39,951 nucleotides of DNA from Deltaproteobacteria bacterium (GCA_016875025.1 VGSH01000016.1:1-39951), one strand, 5' to 3'. Counted from the first letter of the stretch, positions 5,723-24,323 are shown. The notes: generated from the sequence alone by a model not told the origin. Numbers and translations: made by a program.

Positions 5723-6547
5723 TCAATACTGCCCGTCGGCGATGCGTATCCAGCCCTCGGGGAGGAGATCCCGCGTATCAAAATTCCGTGTATCCCCGTC
5801 CAGGCCAAACCAGCGAAGGGGCGCGATAACTTTTTTTGAAGGGTTGCACGCGAGCCAGGCCCCCCACCATGAATAGGACGAATTGGCGATGATAAAATCA
5901 TCGCACAACGACATTAAACACAGGTCGAAACGATTATCCGCGGTATCTGAAACGATAAACCGTGCATTGTCAAAAAGCCGCTGCTGCCTGCACCAGGCAG
6001 GGTCATCAGAGAAAACTATCACATTGCGACCTGGATCAAAATGTTGCAGGGCCGCTTCATAATAGGTCAGCGGCAGATTGAAATGATTTTTGCTGTTGAT
6101 AAGGTAATCGGTGCGGCGCACATGCAGAGCGACCGGATTTTGCACAGTGGCGATCATCGCCTTGCAGCTGCTCAGGATTTCATCCTTAAAAACAAAATCC
6201 TTACGAATTTCGTCCGCGATATGCCTGAAATATTTCTCGGACTGGAAATATCCCAGCAGACTCACATTATCAGGGCATGAGTACAGCAGCTCTTCATCGC
6301 AATGGAAGAAACGTTCACGCACCGTACGGGTACGCCATTTTTTTAAGAGACCGACCCTAACCCGAAGGTCAAAAGCATCGAAAAGTTCCGTCCTGATTTT
6401 ATTTCCGATGCCGTCGTCAACCGGCTGTGTATGGTTGGGGATACATATATCGGCTCCGGCATTGTACGCGATGCCCTTCAAGGCCGCATACTGAAACATC
6501 TGGTTGGCGAGCCGTCCCATCCGGCCGAGTGCGTTGAACCCGATCAT
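5723..6547 (-). CDS. GT11 family glycosyltransferase (alpha-1,2-fucosyltransferase type)
   Basis: Transfers L-fucose, or a related L-sugar, from its GDP-sugar to a galactoside acceptor on a surface glycan. The 274 residues show the GT11 pattern: an N-terminal GRMGRLANQMFQYAAL segment (8-23), the donor-site HVRRTDY motif (142-148) and a C-terminal DFIIANSSYSWWGAWL motif. ATG 6547 is preferred because AAGGAAG lies about 13 bases upstream and the family's N-terminal strand begins there; a TTG at 6589 would add 14 residues but has no ribosome site. The gene sits in the direct-repeat-bounded island and lies about 120 bp downstream of the leftward promoter carried by repeat copy C. No gmd/fcl GDP-fucose genes are in the window. 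Confidence 0.88.
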   Translation of the reverse strand: MIGFNALGRMGRLANQMFQYAALKGIAYNAGADICIPNHTQPVDDGIGNKIRTELFDAFDLRVRVGLLKKWRTRTVRERFFHCDEELLYSCPDNVSLLGYFQSEKYFRHIADEIRKDFVFKDEILSSCKAMIATVQNPVALHVRRTDYLINSKNHFNLPLTYYEAALQHFDPGRNVIVFSDDPAWCRQQRLFDNARFIVSDTADNRFDLCLMSLCDDFIIANSSYSWWGAWLACNPSKKVIAPLRWFGLDGDTRNFDTRDLLPEGWIRIADGQY

Positions 6548-6666
6548 ACTGCGCTTAATCTTCCTTTGCGCGGCCAGTTCCGAGAACAAAAAGTTCGGAG
6601 CGTGGAGTTCGTAACCCGGAGCGGTATAACTACTGAACTGAGAGGAACTTGCTTTACGATGGGCAA

Positions 6667-6695
6667 AGTATAAAACAGGGGCGGTTGTGTGTCAA
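6667..6695 (-). promoter_or_regulatory. Leftward sigma70 promoter in repeat C, upstream of the GT11 gene
   Basis: On the minus strand: TTGACA (complement of 6690-6695), 17-bp spacer, TATACT (complement of 6667-6672). The -35 is perfect and the -10 matches 5 of 6. It lies about 120 bp before the GT11 start with no gene between, so it is the natural promoter for that gene. Confidence 0.75.
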
Positions 6696-6750
6696 CAGCA
6701 CTGTCGGCGCAATTCTAGGCAGGCAGGGTCGGGCAATCAATAAACAGCGT

Positions 6751-7036
6751 CAGATTTGTCCAAAATAAATTATTGGATCGCTGCTGAAGGCCCTCAGGCC
6801 GGGGCCGTCCCGTCCCGTCCGGCAAGGAAGACCTCATTTCATTATCGGCCCGTGTGCCGGAATATTTCAAACGGGCCAGGCACGCCCCCGCGATTGTTGT
6901 CTACAGCAGTGCGCCCGGGCCGTGTATACAATGAATTTTACAGGACGTGCCGTTGCATCGGCAGTGCAAAAACTGCCGGATGGGACGGCACGGTTCCGGC
7001 CTGAGGGCCTGTTCTAAATTATTTTGGACACTACTG
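6751..7036. mobile_element. 286-bp MITE-like element with 9-bp target duplication
   Basis: The ends are imperfect terminal inverted repeats of roughly 65 bp: left CAGATTTGTCCAAAATAAAT, right complement CAGTAGTGTCCAAAATAATT. Matching inner blocks are GGCCCTCAGGCCGG and CCGTCCC(G/A)TCCGGCA. A perfect 9-bp direct repeat AAACAGCGT flanks it (6742-6750 and 7037-7045). The inside is too short for a transposase, and the only open frame (6756-7004) lies within the inverted repeats and is not convincing. It is therefore a non-autonomous element moved in trans. I cannot assign the parent IS family from the ends alone. Confidence 0.85.
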
Positions 7037-20428: not shown

Positions 20429-20457
20429 TTGAGACAGAGTGCTTTTTGTCGTATAAT
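20429..20457 (+). promoter_or_regulatory. Strong predicted sigma70 promoter of the large secreted-protein gene
   Basis: TTGAGA 20429-20434, 17-bp spacer, TATAAT 20452-20457: a perfect -10 and a -35 matching 5 of 6. It opens an AT-rich leader of about 290 nt before ATG 20754. I recognise no riboswitch in the leader. Confidence 0.72.
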
Positions 20458-20600: not shown

Positions 20601-20623
20601 TTGCAATGGTATGCATATTGCAA
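20601..20623. promoter_or_regulatory. Inverted repeat in the leader, possible operator or hairpin
   Basis: TTGCAAT (20601-20607) and ATTGCAA (20617-20623) are perfect 7-bp inverted arms separated by 9 bases, in the AT-rich leader about 145 bp after the -10. This could be a regulator-binding dyad or an RNA stem. Confidence 0.35.
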
Positions 20624-20753: not shown

Positions 20754-23700
20754 ATGAAGACACTGAAAGCAGGAATTATAATTGTATGCATGTTGTGCAT
20801 GGCGGGCCCTGTTTTTGCCGCAGATGCATATTCCCCTTGTGCACGAGTGCCTCTTCAAGAGGCCCGCGATGCCATGGTGAGCGACAGCGAGGTTACGGTT
20901 ACGCAGATTGCAGTGGCTACATGGGGAGATCCTGCCTATTACTATGAGCTGAAACCAAACGGCATGGCACCTCAGGACGGCTTGATTATTTACCCCGGTG
21001 GCTATGTTGATGAAAGAGCCTATGCTGTCATGGCACGCGACATTGCAAAGGCCGGTTTTCTGGTTGTGCTGGTTCCCATGCCTTCCTGTTTGGCTGCTTT
21101 TGACAACGAGGGGCGAGCCTCTGATGTTATAGCCAATAATCCCGGTATTACAACATGGTCCATTGGAGGCCATTCTCTGGGAGGCGTTGCAGCCGGCTGG
21201 ATGATTACGTGTAATAGCTGTGCCAATATCGAAAAGATCAAGGGAGTAGTTCTGTGGGCATCCTATCCTGATGCATTGCAGCCGTTAACAAATAAGCCGG
21301 TAAAGGTTATTTCCATTTGGGGCACAAAAGACGGTCTGACAACGGAACAAACCATAAATAATTCAAAACCGAACTTGCCTGCCGATACGGTCTATGTCGG
21401 GCTTAAAGGAGCCAATCATACGCAGTTCGGTTGGTACGGTCTGCATGCAACGGATTATACCTATCTGAGTACCGGTACTCAAGGCAAGGTTGATAACGCG
21501 GCTGATATCAGCCGCGAGGAGCAGCATAATCTGATTCTCAGCTATACGATTAGTTTTCTGGATTCATTGACCCCGGGTACGCTTAATATTCCGGCTGCTG
21601 TGGGTGAGGTGACGGCTGATGACGGTTCAGTGTGGGAGAAGGTTTCTGGACCCGGCTTTATCGACCGTAACAATACTGATATAGTTGCATTGACTCCGTA
21701 CAAGGGCAACCTGTATGCCCTGACCCGCAATGATGTGACGGGCTTTGAACTGTGGAAAACACAGCCGGCCCAGGGATGGCAGCGTATACATGTGCAGGGT
21801 CTTACCGACCAGAGTAATTATTACGGATATCTGGCGCAACCAAACGGTTTAGATTATTTTCCTCCGGAAATTTACAATCCAATGATGAATATCTGGGGTG
21901 ATATGATCGAGTTCAAGGATCGTTTGTATGTGGGCGTTTCTACGGGGTATCAGGGTTCGGCCCTGTTTGGCTCAAGCGGTGCGTTTATCTGGCGTACGGA
22001 TGGGGTCGATTGGACGCCGGTCATCGGTGGCCATACTTCGACCGCTACGGGAACGCTGACCGAAATTTCCAGCTGCGGCAACAATGACGGTTCAACAACT
22101 GCTGTTTTTACCGACAGCAGCAAGAGCTGGACGACCAACAGTCTTGCAAATTGTACTATTAAAGTTGATGCTTCGTATACAGCTGCAACTCACGGTGAAT
22201 CAGGAGTTGTCGTCCCCGGCAAGCGTCTGTTTATGGTCGTTTCCAATACTGCGACTGCGTTGACAGTGCAGCAGAGCGAGATAGCTACAGCTACCGCGGA
22301 GAGCACCTGGTGCGCTGAGAACGATATGGGCGGCGGCGATACGGGCCGGCCGTGGAGTTATCTTGCGGGTTTCACCACCGGTGCCGCCTATGCAATAACA
22401 TGCGGTGACCATTCGCAGGGCTTTGGCGATCCGTGGAACAAGTCAATTATTGATTTCGAAATATTGAATAACGAGCTTTATGCATCGATCGGGCTCAATT
22501 ATAAGCAGGGTGCCCGAGTTATGAAGACGACGGATGGCCTGGTCTGGGCCGCGGATTCGTCGTACAGTTTCGGCAATATCCACGGAACGGACTGGCGCGA
22601 CGGTAGCACTTTGACCGATGCAGAGTGTGCCACTAACGCCGGCACGGCCAAAGGTGCTCCAGTCAGTTCAAGCGCGACAAAAATGGTTAAAACGAGCGTC
22701 ACGGGCACGGAGACCCTGCTGATCGGCGGAACCGGAACGGCCGGGTGTAACGGACGCGGCGCACGCATCTATCGCCGGGATGGTAATAATGTCTGGACCC
22801 CGATTGTCGATTATCTGGTTGATGATAATATAGTGGGCAGCAATGAAAGCGGATTCGGATGGAATATCGGCGGGCAATTTTTCCGCAGTGCATTCCAGGC
22901 CTGGAGCTGGGTTGAGTATCTCGATACGCTTTTAGTCGGCGTTGCCAAGCTTGAAGCCGGTGGTATGATATATCATACTGACAGCGCATCGGAAGATGAT
23001 GGCGCCTGGAATTTCAGCATGGGTGGTGCAGACCGTGTAAAAGACCCGGTGACCGGCGTTGCGGACACATCTCCTGATCCGGCATATAACGGATTCGGTG
23101 ACGTGCTTAATACAGGGTTCTTTCTGCACAATTATAACGATACGATCTATGTCGGAACACTTGTAACCAATCAAAGCATACAGTTTGCCGCCAATCCGGT
23201 TGAGGGTGCGGAAATATGGAAAGGCTCAGGGCCGGGTGACGCTATTAATTGGACACGGGTAAGCGGAGACGGATTGGGTGACTCAACCGTGCTGCAGTTT
23301 CAGTCGTTCGCGGATTATAATCAAAAAATGTATCTGGTCGCATCAACAGTTAACTCGTCAAACTTCAGGGGCAATGAGCCGACTGATTACACCGGTGCGG
23401 TTGTGTACCGCCTTGCCGAGGAGGCGCCGGAGTGCCTCGATGACGATGACTGCGATCCGGGCTACGAATGTATTGATGGAGTATGCGAACCAATTCCGGA
23501 CGGTCCGCCCTCTCTCGGCGACGGCCCGTTTCTGGCAGCCGGCCCCTGGCCGCTGCTGCCGACCGAAGCTGAAAGCCCGATGTATCTTGACGCCAACTAC
23601 GACGTGCTGTGGACGTTCAGCGATGATTTTGCCTCCTGCTCAGGCGACTGCACGCACGCGGCCGAGTATCAGGCAGTCGGCGCCGACACTTGGACATCTC

Positions 23701-24236
23701 TTGACGTTACGGCCAATGCAGCCAGGGGCACAGCCCGTGTGACGCTGCCGGTAGAGAGCCTGCAGAATGCAACGACGTACGCCTTCCGCTATTCAGTAAC
23801 CGACTGCGCTTCTCAGACAACGGAGTCGAATACGTATTATTTCCGGGTTGCGGTAACGGATGCGCCGCCGGTGATCACAGGCGGCCCGTGGCTGGCAGCC
23901 GGTACGTGGCCTCTGCTGCCGACCTCGGCCGCACAGGCCATGGTGCTTGACCAGAATTATGACGTACTGTGGACGTTCAGCGATGACTATGCGTTTTGCA
24001 GCGGTCTGTGCACGCACCGTGCGCGGTATCGCAGGATTGTCGATGACGGATCGTGGATTTGGGAATGGCTGCCGGTAACAACGGATGCCACGGGCAAGAA
24101 TCGTGCGCGGGTTACGCTGCCGATTGAGAGCATGGAGCCCGGCGAGTACATGTTTTACTTTGATGTGCGGGATTGCGCGGGTCAGAGGACTTCAGCGCCG
24201 AAGGTGTATTATTTCAAGGTTGAGGCTGATAACTGA
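20754..24236 (+). CDS. Large secreted multidomain protein: alpha/beta hydrolase, propeller-like region, tandem C-terminal repeats
   Basis: 1160 residues, with a signal peptide at 1-25 (hydrophobic, ending GPVFAADAY), so exported. Domain 1 (about 40-260) is an alpha/beta hydrolase with a visible triad: Ser141 in GGHSLGG, Asp193 in GTKDG, His222 in GANHTQFG. A middle region (about 285-885) has repeated short units such as NLYALTRNDVTGFELWKT, RLYVGVSTGYQG and TIYVGTLVTNQS, typical of beta-propeller blades. Cys-rich ECLDDDDCDPGYECIDGVCE starts at residue 893. Two homologous repeats follow (about 920-1035 and 1043-1160), each with LAAG.WPLLPT, a VLWTFSDD, CSG.CTH block and a YYF strand near the end; the paired cysteines suggest disulfides. 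ATG 20754 has GGAGGT upstream. Substrate and localisation after export are unknown; an esterase or depolymerase at the cell surface is an inference. Confidence 0.85.
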   Translation: MKTLKAGIIIVCMLCMAGPVFAADAYSPCARVPLQEARDAMVSDSEVTVTQIAVATWGDPAYYYELKPNGMAPQDGLIIYPGGYVDERAYAVMARDIAKAGFLVVLVPMPSCLAAFDNEGRASDVIANNPGITTWSIGGHSLGGVAAGWMITCNSCANIEKIKGVVLWASYPDALQPLTNKPVKVISIWGTKDGLTTEQTINNSKPNLPADTVYVGLKGANHTQFGWYGLHATDYTYLSTGTQGKVDNAADISREEQHNLILSYTISFLDSLTPGTLNIPAAVGEVTADDGSVWEKVSGPGFIDRNNTDIVALTPYKGNLYALTRNDVTGFELWKTQPAQGWQRIHVQGLTDQSNYYGYLAQPNGLDYFPPEIYNPMMNIWGDMIEFKDRLYVGVSTGYQGSALFGSSGAFIWRTDGVDWTPVIGGHTSTATGTLTEISSCGNNDGSTTAVFTDSSKSWTTNSLANCTIKVDASYTAATHGESGVVVPGKRLFMVVSNTATALTVQQSEIATATAESTWCAENDMGGGDTGRPWSYLAGFTTGAAYAITCGDHSQGFGDPWNKSIIDFEILNNELYASIGLNYKQGARVMKTTDGLVWAADSSYSFGNIHGTDWRDGSTLTDAECATNAGTAKGAPVSSSATKMVKTSVTGTETLLIGGTGTAGCNGRGARIYRRDGNNVWTPIVDYLVDDNIVGSNESGFGWNIGGQFFRSAFQAWSWVEYLDTLLVGVAKLEAGGMIYHTDSASEDDGAWNFSMGGADRVKDPVTGVADTSPDPAYNGFGDVLNTGFFLHNYNDTIYVGTLVTNQSIQFAANPVEGAEIWKGSGPGDAINWTRVSGDGLGDSTVLQFQSFADYNQKMYLVASTVNSSNFRGNEPTDYTGAVVYRLAEEAPECLDDDDCDPGYECIDGVCEPIPDGPPSLGDGPFLAAGPWPLLPTEAESPMYLDANYDVLWTFSDDFASCSGDCTHAAEYQAVGADTWTSLDVTANAARGTARVTLPVESLQNATTYAFRYSVTDCASQTTESNTYYFRVAVTDAPPVITGGPWLAAGTWPLLPTSAAQAMVLDQNYDVLWTFSDDYAFCSGLCTHRARYRRIVDDGSWIWEWLPVTTDATGKNRARVTLPIESMEPGEYMFYFDVRDCAGQRTSAPKVYYFKVEADN

Positions 24237-24293
24237 GGCGTGTGTGCCGGGGGATAGTATCTTCTCCCGGCAGATGTAAGTACACAACACAGG

Positions 24294-24323
24294 CAGGGCC
24301 GCTCGCGCGGCCCTGTTTTTTTT
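24294..24323 (+). terminator. Intrinsic terminator of the secreted-protein gene
   Basis: Stem CAGGGCCG / CGGCCCTG around CTCGCG (24294-24315), followed by eight or more T (24316-24323), 58 bp after the stop. A strong Rho-independent terminator that isolates the gene from the next. Confidence 0.9.

Follow-up and report, generated by a model that had tools for sequence, protein, structure and literature searches.

The subject of this work is a gene at positions 20754-24236 (plus strand) of a 39,951-nucleotide stretch of DNA from a Deltaproteobacteria bacterium (GCA_016875025.1, VGSH01000016.1:1-39951; the whole stretch is referred to as the window). The gene codes for a predicted exported hydrolase joined to a probable beta-propeller and to a C-terminal tail of two predicted immunoglobulin (Ig)-like repeats, and our main finding is that the tail belongs to a shared 3' cassette, which ends unrelated exported proteins and is homogenised within the genome. 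This goes beyond the view of the initial annotation, made from the sequence alone, which had described an unusual secreted hydrolase with a propeller-like middle and tandem C-terminal repeats.

The open reading frame (ORF) is complete, it starts with the ATG at 20754, stops with the TGA at 24234-24236, and has the coordinates and the length (1160 amino acids) that had been annotated. In the following, G000 is the window's own genome, G001 is that of a sister species (LaPlata_bin-1461, an uncultured deltaproteobacterium), and C numbers are contigs. The G001 ortholog (C12) is 70% identical across the 1033 residues present on its contig. The architecture is uncommon, and the hydrolase adds a new member to a family already known. 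The parts of the protein are as follows.

20754-24236, plus strand: coding sequence of the exported hydrolase-propeller-tail protein (ORF reading; ortholog in G001)
20754-20819, plus strand: predicted Sec-type signal peptide, residues 1-22, MKTLKAGIIIVCMLCMAGPVFA followed by AD (read from the sequence)
20838-21578, plus strand: Abhydrolase_5 alpha/beta hydrolase domain, residues 29-275, with Ser141, Asp193 and His222 (PF12695, 9eh6, conserved triad)
21606-23423, plus strand: probable seven-bladed beta-propeller, residues 285-890 (family conserved in the class, strand-rich low-confidence model, Foldseek matches)
22047-22343, plus strand: small beta insertion within the propeller, residues 432-530, about 100 amino acids (alignments, strands in the model)
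23430-23489, plus strand: Cys-rich linker, residues 893-912, C-x5-C-x5-C-x4-C (sequence)
23502-23864, plus strand: C-terminal Ig-like repeat 1, residues 917-1037, with Cys962, Cys966 and Cys1018
23865-24233, plus strand: C-terminal Ig-like repeat 2, residues 1038-1160, with Cys1082, Cys1086 and Cys1141

A shared and homogenised 3' cassette

The tail is the end of no fewer than four different exported proteins in G000 and of seven in G001. Besides the window protein, G000 has it on a 1407-residue propeller/FG-GAP protein (C107), a BspA-type leucine-rich repeat (LRR) protein (C192) and a 312-residue solo protein with little beyond signal peptide and tail (C15), and the start of contig C180 falls inside a tail. 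The carriers in G001 are the hydrolase (C12), a propeller/FG-GAP protein (C86), FG-GAP proteins (C122, C103), a protein with another type of propeller (C140), a Kelch protein (C118) and a solo protein (C120). Four further genera of the family have more distant copies, some of them not C-terminal, and the tail profile detected none in the remaining genomes of the 395-genome phylum sample, i.e. outside the family.

The likeness is seen also in the DNA, where it extends past the coding sequence. A BLASTN search with the tail DNA of the window found C180 (98% identity over 181 nt), C107 (88% over 782 nt) and C192 (81% over 829 nt); the similarity sets in close to where repeat 1 starts, continues past the stop codon and a hairpin into the terminator or across it, and ends at 24299 (C107), 24315 (C180) or 24323 (C192). 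These boundaries define the cassette and its 3' elements:

23497-24323, plus strand: homogenised 3' cassette consisting of tail, stop codon, 3' untranslated region (3'UTR) and terminator (BLASTN boundaries against C192, C107 and C180)
24246-24271, plus strand: 3'UTR hairpin GCCGGG...CCCGGC, part of the cassette, similar behind the tails of C180, C107 and C192
24291-24318, plus strand: Rho-independent terminator with 12 pairs, 8 of them G-C, common to the other tail copies

The terminator is as strong as had been claimed, and the gene appears as a stand-alone transcription unit. With the fuller 3'UTR, good scores were obtained behind tails and nothing comparable elsewhere in the genome. The terminator core alone was rejected as a marker of the cassette, it is present at other loci in the genus.

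Within a genome the tail DNA sequences are 79-86% (G000) or 80-92% (G001) identical, the tails of orthologous pairs 65-70%. All five non-solo G001 tails group with full support in a tree of repeat 1, where the three G000 tails form no resolved clade, and trees in which the window tail was forced to group with that of the ortholog in G001, or the C107 tail with the C86 tail, were rejected in the approximately unbiased (AU) test (p-AU 5e-57 and 3e-12, respectively). The propeller heads, in contrast, group as orthologous pairs, moderately supported (73/82 and 80/82). C107 and G001 C86 have an orthologous head (69% identity) and an orthologous downstream gene (77%), the tail between them is 65% identical; the tails of C107 and the window are 86% identical, their propellers 51%, and their downstream genes are unrelated (43%). 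Orthology holds for the solo genes of C15 and C120 (76%), which stand outside the exchange. The cassette thus shows concerted evolution within each genome: the tails are alike because the copies overwrite each other by recombination, or because they spread recently. Gene conversion between copies is the best explanation; it would be less economical to assume that the cassette spread recently and repeatedly to the same positions. Ectopic recombination between scattered copies is also known from TprK (PMC10063172), where, however, gene conversion diversifies variable regions from donor cassettes, whereas in the present case homogenisation affects a C-terminal cassette that is constant, includes the terminator and is attached to non-homologous heads.

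Some observations on individual carriers may be added. The LRR head of C192 starts directly after a stop codon and has no signal peptide (locus L008, 3699-3845), which may reflect a frameshift, a pseudogene or an assembly error. The solo genes, made of signal peptide and tandem tail, are at L009 7443-8381 and L062 near 6000-6840, the one in G000 directly before two ABC transporter genes. On two contigs of G004 (L041, L043) tail-like repeats are preceded by a long N-terminal region that resembles none of the other heads.

Fold of the tail repeats

The initial annotation had recognised two 110-residue repeats. The tandem pair is real (repeat 1 and repeat 2 are 53% identical over 120 columns, E 6e-41), the length of each repeat is about 120 residues. 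In an AF2 model of the pair (mean predicted local distance difference test, pLDDT, 78) nearly everything is strand. Compared with the PDB, the model gave 850 matches at E<=0.001, nearly all of those listed being folds of antibodies, FN3 domains and Ig-type receptors; the template modelling (TM) scores across both domains together were low. Judged from the model, the repeats are Ig/Fn3-like sandwiches; within this known fold they form a new branch, which no named family fits. The annotation had not recognised the repeat as a named domain and had suggested that it may be novel; the profile search, in which no convincing match to a well-described family appeared, agrees with the absence of a family model, the novelty does not extend to the fold. 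The window tail scored 25.4 bits with K319L-like PKD (PF22352), below the Pfam cut-off of 27, and a partial match of repeat 2 to hGDE_N (24.1 vs 22.1 bits), which covers one sheet edge, we take as fold-level only. The cut-off of HYR_4C (PF23237) was passed only by a distant tail copy in G004. With HYR_4C, K319L-like PKD and Big_13 the repeats share, in weak or distant model matches, the Ig-type sandwich and the xDCxGQ/N strand end, but the window copy stays below all cut-offs and has its own conserved WxFSDDxxxC and CTH motifs and the tandem C-terminal layout.

Of the three Cys residues of a repeat the first and the third vary least, whereas several copies lack the second, and a disulfide between the first and the third Cys is likely in each repeat. 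The Cys-rich segment before the tail, which had also been annotated, is located at residues 893-912, and comparable segments stand before the tail in C107 and in G001 C12, C122, C140 and C118. It resembles the short Cys-rich repeat type Myxo_Cys_RPT (TIGR04201), but the linker-like Cys repeat of the C118 Kelch protein alone comes near the cut-off, scoring just below it, the window protein does not.

Hydrolase and propeller

Export of the hydrolase, as annotated, is indicated by the Sec-type signal peptide, which has a basic start, a hydrophobic core, a VFA/A-type cleavage site and no lipobox. Residues 76-235 match PF12695 (Abhydrolase_5) with E 1.6e-41 and 142 bits (cut-off 27). The nearest solved structure is 9eh6, which matches residues 71-235 (E 1.3e-39), and Ser141, Asp193 and His222 align with its motifs GGHSLGG, GTLDG and GGNHAQFGWYG. 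The triad had been described as intact, and its residues are indeed at these positions, inside the PF12695 domain, and conserved: when the window protein was compared with relatives of its class (23 sequences in all), Ser and Asp were present in 23/23 and His in all 21 sequences covering that position, and most have the PGG motif. The proximity of the triad residues is expected from the 9eh6 alignment, the hydrolase part of our own full-length model has pLDDT <50. The protein is likely an exported serine hydrolase, most likely of the esterase/lipase type. The roles suggested in the initial annotation, an esterase or depolymerase that binds to wall or matrix, are plausible. The whole domain, the Ser-Asp-His triad and the GHSLGG and GxNHxQFGWYG motifs are shared with Abhydrolase_5 and 9eh6; the difference is that 9eh6 is a 230-residue chain, whereas the window hydrolase is joined to a propeller and a tail. 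A literature search on 9eh6, on the combination of a propeller with Abhydrolase_5 and on C-terminal concerted evolution yielded nothing of use.

Residues 285-890 had no match in Pfam, nor did a propeller profile find one among the PDB sequences. By eye, a unit 'GFGD...(f)..(L/I)Y.g.......Ga.iW....W' recurs about seven times in this region. The model of all 1160 residues was built from an alignment of five rows, which is too shallow (mean pLDDT 48.3), and only the type of its matches was used: in Foldseek these were mostly propellers with low TM-scores (sensor propellers, sialidases, integrin, GH74, DDB1). The sequence rhythm and the low-confidence model point to a probable seven-bladed beta-propeller, in keeping with the propeller-like middle that had been annotated. 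The propeller profile gave high scores in eight genomes of the class and weak matches only elsewhere in the phylum sample. The small beta insertion has a relative in a pilin-like protein with an 'FSLIELL' start (L110, G062 C78), in which one stretch is similar with E 1.5e-11.

In the hydrolase tree the five sequences fused to the propeller are united in one clade (96/93), and the secreted Abhydrolase_5 proteins of the class that stand alone fall outside it; the hydrolase-propeller fusion therefore arose once and is, on the evidence of this tree, old. What follows the fused core varies: the window protein and G001 C12 have the tandem Ig tail, G001 C11 another Cys-rich end and then a further domain, G014 C154 a short end, G010 C374 a Thr-rich linker and a 'NAGFNIYR' domain, and G007 C115 a similar domain without the linker.

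Promoter and neighbouring genes

Two candidate promoters lie upstream of the gene:

20607-20622, plus strand: sigma-54 type -24/-12 site TGGTATGCATATTGCA, 147 nt before the ATG (sole motif match in the window, conserved block, rpoN)
20429-20457, plus strand: sigma-70-like site TTGAGA-17-TATAAT, 11/12 consensus, use uncertain

Across the 40 kb window TGGYAYRNNNNTTGCW is matched by TGGTATGCATATTGCA alone, where 0.11 matches would be expected, and shuffled upstream regions reach its score in 1.1% of cases. An 18-nt upstream block, 94% shared with the G001 ortholog, contains the exact GG-N10-GC; the G001 version, TGGTATGTATATTGCA, is at -153. The genome has rpoN. Transcription would thus probably start from the sigma-54 promoter with a leader of about 120 nt. 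The initial annotation had proposed a strong promoter, a long leader and heavy expression. A sigma-70-like sequence, presumably the one meant, is present and may be a promoter, but it sits in a spacer of 31% G+C in which such sites are prone to arise by chance (6 matches in a 4.2 kb region vs 4.8 expected), and the conserved site is the sigma-54 type one; the ortholog contig ends too close upstream for the conservation of the sigma-70-like site to be compared. Heavy expression is unsupported: the conserved promoter is of sigma-54 type, therefore expression should depend on an enhancer-binding activator.

No promoter common to all tail genes was found, a clear sigma-54 site was seen only in the hydrolase gene and its ortholog. 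Upstream of the tail genes of C107 (L007 7260-7545) and G001 C86 (L061 1-159) there is a shared TGGCA(C/T)G-N4-GTGTA, which is sigma-54-like with GT replacing GC at -12. Directly upstream of the 1407-residue tail gene, on the same strand, one open frame (L007, G000 C107, 7545-9608, minus strand) combines a histidine-kinase ATPase, a receiver, a sigma-54 activator and a Fis-type helix-turn-helix, and is a possible regulator of tail proteins.

The neighbours of the gene in the window (TRAP transporter, aldehyde dehydrogenase, YggS-like, PNPOx-like and MgtC/DUF4010 genes) suggest no shared pathway, and an Rfam search of the window gave no match.

Discussion

We favour, with moderate confidence, a joint explanation in which a secreted esterase, a substrate-binding propeller and a tail that holds the protein at the surface or in the matrix are encoded by one gene with a homogenised 3' cassette and a sigma-54 promoter. 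The hydrolase would cleave a substrate bound or positioned by the fused propeller, and the disulfide-bearing pair of Ig-like domains would retain the enzyme on the cell or in its matrix. The tail would be a general display module, reused on several unrelated exported proteins, nearly all of them beta-propellers; the 3' end of the gene behaves as a cassette, recombination or recent spread keeping the copies alike while the heads diverge. Transcription would be started by the sigma-54 promoter together with an enhancer-binding activator. Several points weigh against this explanation. The protein has no sortase-type signal, transmembrane helix or lipobox to hold the tail to the surface, and the other tail genes have no clear sigma-54 site. 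The evidence for the propeller is its sequence rhythm and a model of low confidence. In G002 C231 and G007 C264 the repeat follows the signal peptide, which fits a binding or spacer domain equally well. The tail copy numbers are minima, as the draft metagenome-assembled genomes break at tails.

It is possible, though we doubt it, that the tail has no partner and merely serves as an Ig-like spacer or for stability, and that its likeness within a genome is a by-product of repeat recombination. Ig/Fn3-like folds are common as bacterial spacers, the position of the repeat varies in other genera, and elsewhere the hydrolase-propeller core bears quite different tails. Within the genus, however, the tail is at the extreme C-terminus wherever the end of the protein is visible, and the conserved solo gene (C15, G001 C120) codes for a signal peptide and a tail with nothing to space.

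Somewhat less likely still, the tandem Ig tail could be the handle of an undescribed, family-wide attachment system, an exchangeable cassette copied onto propeller and LRR heads and kept uniform to fit one partner, possibly the solo protein or an outer-membrane receptor. If the uniformity does reflect one shared partner, the tail would mark the surface proteome of this uncultured lineage and could be used to find it. Whatever its function, the tail offers a clean case of head-tail modularity, with one constant C-terminal cassette including the terminator, non-homologous heads, and conflicting head and tail trees.

We consider it unlikely that a dedicated machine for export or anchoring recognises the tail as its C-terminal targeting signal. 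One C-terminus on unrelated exported heads is the pattern of MYXO-CTERM/myxosortase (PMC11980579), GlyGly-CTERM/rhombosortase (PMC3237569) and the C-terminal domain of the type IX secretion system (T9SS), and the genome has two secretins. Unlike those signals, the window tail consists of two folded domains of about 240 residues in all and has no sorting motif or membrane helix, no hydrophobic tail and no invariant terminal Cys. The protein ends with YYFKVEADN, it has no signature of MYXO-CTERM, GlyGly-CTERM or PEP-CTERM, and no NCBIfam sorting-signal model matches it; no T9SS C-terminal domain model matched the window protein either, the T9SS machinery was not searched for. No rhomboid (PF01694) was found in the window's own assembly with a search that was positive in 14/14 controls. 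In sister genera, moreover, the repeat can be near the N-terminus.

Alpha/beta hydrolase folds are occasionally recruited to non-catalytic roles, yet the conservation of Ser, Asp and His and of the PGG motif makes it very improbable that the hydrolase is a binding or structural relic. That the likeness of the tails is an assembly artefact, a single tail mis-joined to several heads, is hardly credible: G001 contigs do break inside the tail, but every head-tail join is in frame, the long tail copies differ by 8-21% in DNA, two species with separate assemblies show the same combinations of head and tail, C16 and C107 continue well beyond the tail, and C107 and C86 share a conserved neighbour gene.

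Returning to the proposed substrate-binding propeller, a related propeller is coupled to an alpha/beta hydrolase also in lipoproteins of about 900 amino acids in G006, G007 and G008 (L107, L115, L120, L124). These differ from the window protein in that the propeller comes first and is followed by a hydrolase of another, chlorophyllase/PETase-like family, they are apparently lipid-anchored and have no Ig tail. One propeller family is thus combined with two hydrolase families at opposite ends, therefore we infer that propeller and hydrolase cooperate, and the simplest view of the pairing is that the propeller is likely the substrate binder and the hydrolase the enzyme. Such an order-swapped coupling would amount to an enzyme scaffold, with a substrate that is perhaps polyester- or lipid-like. 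The lipoproteins of G006, G007 and G008 are themselves candidates for extracellular ester cleavage.

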